Source: Rhodobiaceae bacterium
GTDB taxonomy: Bacteria > Pseudomonadota > Alphaproteobacteria > Rhizobiales > Tepidamorphaceae
Direction: 5' to 3'
DNA: 40,356 nucleotides
Assembly (NCBI GenBank): GCA_007118805.1
Contig: SKQW01000117.1
Span: forward strand, 1 to 40,356
In this document: positions 2,545 through 33,717 of the stretch, piece by piece
How positions within the stretch are numbered: position 1 is the first letter of the stretch
Layout of the letters: each line of letters starts with the position of its first letter
Notes under the pieces: generated by a model
The model's database searches: none
What the model was told of the DNA's origin: nothing
Seen by the model: only the letters and a program-made list of their open reading frames with translations
Position numbers and translations under genes: made by a program

Positions 2545-3822
2545 TCAAGGGCGCGGATCAGGCGCGCGGCGGTACCAAACCCACGCGATGACGAGGCTGA
2601 TACCTATCAGCCAGAACGCAGCCTGGTAGGCGGCGAATGGACGCACCGGCCGGGCATCGCCCTCGGCCAGCGGTTCGAACAGACCGATGACCGCCGCCGT
2701 TGCCAGCTGCAGCAGGACCGTGCCCCCAACCGTGGCTATGTTGATCATGGTCATGCCCCGTCCGACGAGTGCAATGGGAAACAGCGCGCGGCCATGGGCG
2801 GTCAGCACCGGGACGAAGGCCGACGCCAGGCCGAGTATAACAAGGATCGTCAGGGCAGCGGGAAGACTTGTATCGCCGAACAGGCCGAGCAGCCCGAACA
2901 GCCCGGCCGTGACCAGCGCGCCGACCTCGACGACGCGCCGGCGCCCGCCAAACAGCCGGTCCATCGGCCCCCAGGCGAGCAGACCTATCACATTGGCCGC
3001 CGCTGCCACGAGCAGCACGTTACCCCGCGCCCTCAGATCGAGACCGAAAACATCCGAAAGATAGGGCCCGCCCCAGAGGCCCAGCACGGTCACGAAGCTC
3101 GAATAGGCGACCAGCGACATGGCGAAGACCGGGGCGAAGCCCGGAGTGCGAACGACCTCCAACAGCCCCTTGACGCTCTGCGCCAGTGATTCCGGAGGAT
3201 TGAGGCCATGACCCTGGCCAGGCGGAGAGTCGCGCACCACCAGGGCCGTCACGCCGCCAACAAAGATCAGGGCCAGCGCGATGAAGATGAAGCTTGCCCG
3301 CCAGCCCATGAGGGCGCTCGAATAGGCCAAAGGCGCGGTCGCCAGAAGCATGCCCAGCGTGCCGATGCCAAGCTGGATCCCGGTCAGGGTAGAGAACCGC
3401 TCCGGCGCGAACCAGCGCGCATAGATCGTCAGCGGCGCGATGAAAAAGGTCGAGCAGCCGAGCCCCATGAGCGCACGAGCCAGAGTCAGGCTTGCCAGGG
3501 ACTGCCCATAAGCAAAGATGAGGCAGCCGGCGATCCCGAATCCGAGCGAAGCGAGCATACAGCGCTTCGGTCCGAAGCGGTCGATCGCCACACCAACCGG
3601 AATTTGAACGAGGGCAAAGCTCAGAAAGAACGCGCTTGACAGCGCGCCGAGCGCTTCCGGGGACAAGGCCAGCTCATCGGCGATATCCGGCGCGATGACG
3701 CCGACCGAGTTCCGCAGGAATTGACTGAACATATAGACCAGGCACAGCGTCCCGGACAGCATGACCACGGTCGCAACGCCGCTGCTACCAGCCGTCCGCT
3801 CCGGTTTCCCGATCTGCCGCAT
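2545..3822 (-). CDS. Major facilitator superfamily (MFS) transporter
   Basis: A 425-residue integral membrane protein with about 12 hydrophobic segments, the normal MFS size. The motif between TM2 and TM3 is recognisable (VGVAIDRFGPKR, matching the GxxxDRxGRR signature), followed by LTLARALMGLGCSTFFIAP, typical of TM4-TM5. A cytoplasmic loop rich in Pro, Gly and Glu (DSPPGQGHG) separates the two halves. It resembles the nitrate/hexuronate/phthalate-permease side of the superfamily, but the substrate cannot be read from sequence. The start used is ATG 3822, where GAAGG lies too close to the ATG for a good ribosome site; an internal start near residue 22 is possible. It is divergently arranged with the histidinol-phosphatase-like gene and ends before a terminator at 2328-2357. 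Confidence 0.85.
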   Translation of the reverse strand: MRQIGKPERTAGSSGVATVVMLSGTLCLVYMFSQFLRNSVGVIAPDIADELALSPEALGALSSAFFLSFALVQIPVGVAIDRFGPKRCMLASLGFGIAGCLIFAYGQSLASLTLARALMGLGCSTFFIAPLTIYARWFAPERFSTLTGIQLGIGTLGMLLATAPLAYSSALMGWRASFIFIALALIFVGGVTALVVRDSPPGQGHGLNPPESLAQSVKGLLEVVRTPGFAPVFAMSLVAYSSFVTVLGLWGGPYLSDVFGLDLRARGNVLLVAAAANVIGLLAWGPMDRLFGGRRRVVEVGALVTAGLFGLLGLFGDTSLPAALTILVILGLASAFVPVLTAHGRALFPIALVGRGMTMINIATVGGTVLLQLATAAVIGLFEPLAEGDARPVRPFAAYQAAFWLIGISLVIAWVWYRRAPDPRP

Positions 3823-6583: not shown

Positions 6584-6612
6584 CTTGAACGCGCGTCCGA
6601 CAATTCCCACCT
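6584..6612 (+). promoter_or_regulatory. Possible sigma-32 (RpoH) promoter of hsp20
   Basis: CTTGAA at 6584-6589 matches the strong -35 half (CTTG) of alphaproteobacterial RpoH promoters. After an 18-base spacer from CTTG, CCCACCT (6606-6612) fits five of seven positions of the CYTATNT -10 element. Transcription would then start near 6620, just where the structured leader begins. The -10 match is imperfect, so this is tentative; the location ahead of a small heat-shock gene is what supports it. Confidence 0.35.
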
Positions 6613-6620
6613 CATTAATC

Positions 6621-6711
6621 GGTGCACGCCCACTCCTTGGGGTGTGCCGAATCGAGAGGTCCGGCCATTCCGGCGGGCCTGAACCGCATGTCGCTTCACA
6701 GGAGGATATGC
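6621..6711 (+). promoter_or_regulatory. ROSE-like RNA thermometer in the hsp20 leader
   Basis: Three successive hairpins precede hsp20: 6621-6648, 6660-6682 and 6686-6711. The last shows the ROSE signature. The strand t6691-c-g-c-t6695 (UCGCU, consensus UYGCU) pairs with AGGA at 6703-6706, with G6693 bulged out. The stem continues as G6690-T6707 and GCAT (6686-6689) with ATGC (6708-6711), closed by a seven-base loop at 6696-6702. The AGGAGG ribosome site (6700-6705) is partly in this stem and ends 7 bases before the ATG at 6713. In known ROSE elements this weak pairing melts as temperature rises, freeing translation of small heat-shock genes in Rhizobiales and relatives. Folding was done by eye. 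Confidence 0.7.
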
Positions 6712-6712
6712 C

Positions 6713-7180
6713 ATGCGTCACTTCGATCTTTCGCCGCTCTATCGTTCGACGGTCGGTTTCGATCATCTGTTCTCGATGCTCGACACGCTTGGACGGACCG
6801 ACAACGGGGCACCGAGCTATCCGCCGTATGACATCGAGCGCACCGGCGAGAACGACTACCGCATCGTGATGGCGGTGGCGGGCTTCCGCGAGGAGGACAT
6901 CTCCATCGAGGTCAAGGAGCAGACTCTGACCATCCGCGGGGAGAAGAAGCCCGACGATTCTCAGCCGCAGGGCGAGGTGCTGTATCGCGGCATCGCCCAG
7001 CGCGGCTTCGAGCGTCGCTTCCAGCTCGCCGACCACGTCCAGGTGCGCGGCGCCGCGCTTGAGAACGGGCTGCTCAGCATTGAGCTCGTTCGCGAGATTC
7101 CCGAGGCGATGAAGCCCCGCACCATCGAGATCAGCTCGCCTCAGAAGGGCGGCAAGGTCATCGATCAGAAGGCGGCCTGA
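6713..7180 (+). CDS. Small heat-shock protein, Hsp20/IbpA family
   Basis: A 155-residue ATP-independent chaperone that binds unfolding proteins and holds them for refolding by DnaK/ClpB. The N-terminus (MRHFDLSPLYRSTVGFDHLF) is the arm typical of IbpA-class proteins. The alpha-crystallin domain spans about residues 38-130, with VAGFREEDISIEV, LTIRGEK and the C-terminal AALENGLLSIEL motif. A short C-terminal tail follows. The leader carries a ROSE-like thermometer and a possible RpoH promoter, so heat control at two levels is likely. It is a single-gene unit closed by the terminator at 7214-7240. Confidence 0.95.
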   Translation: MRHFDLSPLYRSTVGFDHLFSMLDTLGRTDNGAPSYPPYDIERTGENDYRIVMAVAGFREEDISIEVKEQTLTIRGEKKPDDSQPQGEVLYRGIAQRGFERRFQLADHVQVRGAALENGLLSIELVREIPEAMKPRTIEISSPQKGGKVIDQKAA

Positions 7181-7213: not shown

Positions 7214-7240
7214 ACGCCCCGGCTCGCGCCGGGGCGTTTT
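7214..7240 (+). terminator. Rho-independent terminator of hsp20
   Basis: A 10-bp stem, ACGCCCCGGC (7214-7223) pairing with GCCGGGGCGT (7228-7237), with a TCGC loop, followed by TTTTC. It begins 33 bp after the hsp20 stop and 40-60 bp before the end of the converging threonine aldolase gene, so it may insulate both. Confidence 0.85.
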
Positions 7241-33583: not shown

Positions 33584-33666
33584 TCAGCCCCACCCGTTTG
33601 CAGTTTCGGCGCTGCCACTTGGCGCCCGCCCGCTTGCGTTCTTACCGACATTCCACTAGTACCGGC

Positions 33667-33717
33667 GGCGGGACACCCCTCCCCAACGAGGGGCGACTAT
33701 CTGGAAGGGTAGCTGAC
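33667..33717 (+). promoter_or_regulatory. serC leader RNA motif
   Basis: Two hairpins lie directly before serC. The first pairs CCCCTC (33676-33681) with GAGGGG (33688-33693). The second pairs CTATC (33697-33701) with GGTAG (33708-33712), its loop and 3' arm containing the GGAAGGG ribosome site (33703-33709), and the ATG follows at 33718. A conserved serC motif of about this size, upstream of serC-serA in alphaproteobacteria, was described by comparative genomics, and this matches in position, layout and size. Its ligand or effector is not known to me. I could not compare with the covariance model. Confidence 0.7.

Follow-up and report, generated by a model that had tools for sequence, protein, structure and literature searches.

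ROSE elements preceding hsp20 in rhizobia and their relatives have been known since about 2001. Such elements are documented before small heat-shock genes of rhizobia and of other alpha- and gamma-proteobacteria (PMC3669281, PMC4166951, PMC3989490), including one from M. loti (PMC3989490), with Nocker 2001 and Waldminghaus 2005 cited for the elements (in PMC3669281 and PMC4166951). The class is defined by a U(U/C)GCU sequence that pairs imperfectly with the Shine-Dalgarno and leaves a G bulged (PMC11342760, PMC3669281). In published ROSE elements, induction is lost or lessened when the bulged G is deleted or wobble pairs are tightened (PMC3669281, PMC11342760).

The window, i.e. the whole stretch of 40,356 nucleotides analysed here, contains the ATG of a 155-aa Hsp20/IbpA-like gene at position 6713. 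The leader in front of it (6620-6712) is very probably a genuine alphaproteobacterial ROSE-family thermometer, which would repress hsp20 translation when cool, under the control of an RpoH promoter. The features of the locus are reported below, ordered by position.

6584..6589, + strand: CTTGAA, -35 element of a promoter of the sigma-32 (RpoH) type, from the sequence and from ortholog conservation
6606..6612, + strand: CCCACCT, -10 element of the same RpoH-type promoter, following CTTGAA after a spacer of N16 and aligned by eye with CCCATAT/CCCACAT of orthologs
6620..6649, + strand: hairpin I of the leader, from the minimum-energy (MFE) and centroid structures
6628..6720, + strand: sub-threshold match to the Rfam ROSE model RF00435, full length (1-94), 18.6 bits against a gathering threshold of 45
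6657..6680, + strand: hairpin II (CCGGCC..GGCGGG), from the MFE and covariation
6686..6711, + strand: hairpin III, the proposed thermosensing stem, with UCGCU (6691-6695) against AGGA (6703-6706) and G6693 bulged, from fold, conservation and covariation
6700..6705, + strand: Shine-Dalgarno AGGAGG, inside hairpin III, read from the sequence
6713..7180, + strand: hsp20, encoding an IbpA-like small heat-shock protein of 155 aa (PF00011, 70.7 bits, E 1.2e-19)
7215..7240, + strand: probable intrinsic hsp20 terminator, CGCCCCGGCTCGCGCCGGGGCG followed by TTTT, read from the sequence

The closest NCBIfam model for the product of the gene at 6713 is IbpA, with 160.9 bits, below the model cut-off of 212; the identity of the gene as hsp20 is judged solid from the PF00011 match. 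The terminator was missed by a pattern scan, which requires at least five T where the site has TTTT. Elsewhere in the window, a serC leader (Rfam RF00517, 74.6 bits, 33666-33717, + strand) and a suhB / mmgR small RNA (Rfam RF00519, 71.7 bits, 2321-2394, - strand) were detected.

The fold predicted for 6620-6720 consists of the three hairpins listed above, the same number claimed by an earlier, sequence-only reading of this DNA; in its minimum-energy form, the start codon AUG (6713) takes part in no pair. In that reading, the last hairpin was described as UCGCU placed opposite AGGA with a single bulged G, extended by a G-U pair and GCAT/ATGC, and covering the ribosome site; the description proved correct base for base. 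As read from the sequence, pairs are formed by U6691-A6706, C6692-G6705, C6694-G6704 and U6695-A6703, with G6693 bulged; the outer stem is made up of G6690-U6707, then GCAU (6686-6689) and AUGC (6708-6711), and the inner pairs are U6696-G6702 and C6697-G6701. Masking of the Shine-Dalgarno is predicted by the folding model, which gives G6702-G6705 a probability of 0.02-0.05 of being unpaired at 37 C.

Hairpin III alone folds at -11.5 kcal/mol, against a mean of -5.0 (sd 2.2) for shuffled sequences, 10 of 1000 of which fold as well, and it ranks in the top tenth of orthologs by stability, their median being -7.5 kcal/mol. In-silico removal of the bulged G6693 brings it to -15.3 kcal/mol at 37 C. 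For the whole leader, stability relative to shuffles is moderate only (z -1.9). Folding energy thus carries little weight by itself, and conservation is what the ROSE assignment depends on. In nearest-neighbour folding, the mean accessibility of the Shine-Dalgarno rises from 0.05 (37 C) to 0.07 (42 C) and 0.22 (60 C); little opening by 42 C is likewise predicted for a second ROSE element of the same genome, located on contig C32 and scoring above the Rfam cut-off. As opening is small in both elements, these models do not discriminate and, because little change was seen, folding at rising temperature was counted neither for nor against thermosensing.

Orthologous leaders were drawn from the family, the order (Hyphomicrobiales) and named genomes, and 112 distinct sequences were obtained. 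The motif U(C/U)GCU is present at 45 nt or less from the start codon in all 112 Hyphomicrobiales hsp20 leaders, against 5.6% of shuffled ones. The exact register, i.e. A, G, bulge, G, A opposite UYGCU, is found in 79 of the 112 local MFE structures and is absent from about 30% of them. When the variants of this anchor were counted, UCGCU/AGGA was found in 71 leaders, UUGCU/AGGA in 33, UUGCU/AGAA in 7 and the pair-breaking UCGCU/AGAA in none (Fisher p about 0.0005, shared ancestry not corrected for). The pair next to the anchor is G-C in 58 leaders, G-U in 44, A-U in 9 and A-C in none (Fisher p about 0.0009, with the same uncorrected ancestry).

Base pairs were then counted on a 60-sequence alignment and on hairpins II-III only, because a MAFFT alignment of the full leader misaligned hairpin I in some rows. 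For the named structure, 85.1% of pairs are standard and both-side changes are observed at 10 of 17 pairs; its covariation score of 0.199 exceeds that of shuffles (0.135) and falls to 0.02-0.08 once the partners are slid by 1-3 columns. The main helix of hairpin II is paired in 85.5% of cells, with both-side changes in 4 of its 6 pairs, e.g. C-G 20 / U-A 16. Hairpin I, by inspection, is kept as RCGCC..GGGTSCGC in many orthologs; simple pattern counts for the hairpin I and II motifs gave 57/112 and 59/112, with patterns too crude to use. Relatives keep the pairing through compensating changes, and conservation of the masking is itself apparent at the level of aligned sequences.

No ROSE match was found in the window at Rfam gathering thresholds. 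In a permissive-threshold search of 501 bases, the RF00435 match has an E of 2.3 over all families, and no Rfam family other than RF00435 matches the leader at E up to 10. The ROSE assignment made by the sequence-only reading is upheld in this search by the full-length alignment to a single family, but not by the score: by the gathering threshold of 45 bits, the leader, at 18.6 bits, is outside RF00435, although the structural features defining ROSE are present. The cut-off is passed by one of the 20 Hyphomicrobiales hsp20 loci tested, namely the second element of the same genome. Because the other 19 also fail, the shortfall here reflects a narrow model and not an absent element, and RF00435 seems too narrow for most of the hsp20 loci tested in the order. 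A further sub-threshold RF00435 match (24.5 bits) was noted in another genome, G003, on contig C39; the hsp20 ortholog of that genome is on contig C34.

A dedicated covariance model was trained on 60 leaders, the window sequence among them. The model recovered all 54 ortholog loci left out of the alignment, some of which are near-identical to its members and four of which reach only E 0.08-0.15. Within the window, the leader, being a training sequence, scored 70.9 bits, the next-best match 15 bits. A scan of 61 genomes of the order gave matches at E up to 0.05 in 40 genomes, at 42 places, all 42 of them directly upstream of hsp20, as established by coordinates or, for genome G056 at 2048604, by reading; many of the 61 genomes had provided training sequences, and the result is one of specificity (no matches elsewhere) more than of sensitivity. 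The presence of UYGCU in all leaders, the covariation and the restriction of model matches to hsp20 bear out the ROSE-like element originally proposed upstream of this gene. Two weak matches were discarded: one on contig C389 of the same genome (23.3 bits, E 0.48), which precedes a ribB-like gene (named by eye), is put down to chance, and one of 17.4 bits near a third hsp20 paralog, at locus L041, is at noise level.

A possible RpoH promoter had also been indicated just before the leader. The published sigma-32 consensus is CTTGAA-N13-18-CNCCATAT (PMC3669281), and the window sequence CTTGAA-N16-CCCACCT matches this pattern, with a -10 element differing from CCCATAT at two bases. The fixed pattern CTTG-N15-20-CC[CTA]A.. 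was found in 87 of the 112 ortholog leaders, against 1.7% of shuffles, the spacer of orthologs, counted after CTTG, being almost always N17-N18. A rpoH gene is present in the genome (376.7 bits, over the cut-off) and was confirmed; both lines of evidence support the indicated promoter, from which transcription would start near 6619-6621. Both features of the sigma-32 (RpoH) regulon, promoter-like sequence and rpoH gene, are found for hsp20, a putative member. A second sigma-32-type gene (280.6 bits, below the cut-off) and a weaker third sigma-factor match were also observed (contigs C312, C42, C172); the two sigma-32-type genes are possibly a RpoH1/RpoH2 pair.

In the proposed mechanism, transcription from the sigma-32 (RpoH) promoter would start near 6620, and hairpins I and II would serve as stable scaffolds. 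When cool, hairpin III would pair UCGCU with the AGGA of the Shine-Dalgarno around the bulged G, hiding AGGAGG and barring ribosomes; when warm, this stem, which the bulged G and the G-U pairs weaken, would open, ribosomes would bind and hsp20 would be translated. That the stem melts with temperature, represses translation and allows heat induction of hsp20 is suggested here by analogy with published ROSE elements.

The same hairpin might also be a static one, which masks the Shine-Dalgarno and sets a low level of translation, heat induction deriving wholly from the RpoH promoter. Such an arrangement would be consistent with the small melting predicted between 37 and 42 C, with the good conservation of the promoter and with a stem more stable than in most orthologs, but is considered unlikely: the ROSE motif with its unpaired G is kept in 112/112 leaders, although loss of the G would provide a better static lock, and, in published cases, the same motif confers temperature control, which is abolished or reduced by stabilising changes (PMC3669281, PMC11342760). 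Chance complementarity to the Shine-Dalgarno in G+C-rich DNA, which the z of only -1.9 for the whole leader could suggest, has a next to null probability, being refuted by the order-wide conservation and covariation, and by whole-genome model matches located before hsp20 only.

Conservation of hairpins I and II could point to some other class of leader, e.g. a ligand or protein binding site sharing hairpin III by coincidence; this is very unlikely, as the Rfam search returned no competing family at E up to 10 and rhizobial ROSE elements likewise have three to four hairpins (PMC3669281). The thermometer reading is preferred because of the exact geometry of the pairing, its conservation and covariation in orthologs, the location before hsp20 only, the conserved promoter and the presence of rpoH. 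By analogy with known elements, it would support heat control of a small chaperone at the level of translation, at a gene for which default Rfam annotation reports nothing. A modest addition is that, at default settings, most of the Hyphomicrobiales leaders tested go unannotated by Rfam; they are recovered by the dedicated covariance model.

Comparison with known systems starts within the same genome, where the second ROSE, on contig C32, scores 55.5 bits by RF00435 and precedes a hsp20 paralog. The locus (2571-3704) is composed of the ROSE followed by two hsp20 genes on the same strand, a probable operon; PF00011 matches in the genome are six. As in the 6620-6712 leader, an anti-Shine-Dalgarno motif (UUGCU there) is present and a hsp20 paralog lies downstream; unlike that leader, the C32 element heads a probable two-gene hsp20 operon and passes the Rfam cut-off. 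Hairpin III at 6686-6711 is longer and more stable than its C32 counterpart (-11.5 vs -7.8 kcal/mol). A broader proposal, rather doubtful and offered tentatively, is that Hyphomicrobiales hsp20 leaders form a coherent ROSE lineage, largely unannotated by the Rfam cut-off, and that the two elements of this genome, differing in predicted stability, could open at different temperatures, staggering the two hsp20 loci.

Pseudomonas ibpA short ROSE-like thermometers (PMC3669281) share with the leader the U(U/C)GCU motif against the Shine-Dalgarno, the bulged G, the unpaired AUG, a sigma-32 promoter and an IbpA-type gene, but they are formed by two hairpins over about 60 nt, compared with three hairpins over about 93 nt here. 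The Bradyrhizobium/Rhizobium hspA-type ROSE (RF00435) corresponds to the leader in its position directly before the hsp20 start, three hairpins, an upstream RpoH-type promoter, U(U/C)GCU with a bulged G against the Shine-Dalgarno and alignment to the full length of the model; the leader differs from it in a sequence too divergent for the gathering cut-off. The features of the ROSE class are found at this locus: U(U/C)GCU imperfectly paired with the Shine-Dalgarno, a bulged G, a location in the leader of a small heat-shock gene, abutting its start codon, and, out of the one to three stable hairpins typical ahead of the sensing hairpin, two (I and II). The 6620-6712 leader is an additional member of the established ROSE class, as a divergent copy.
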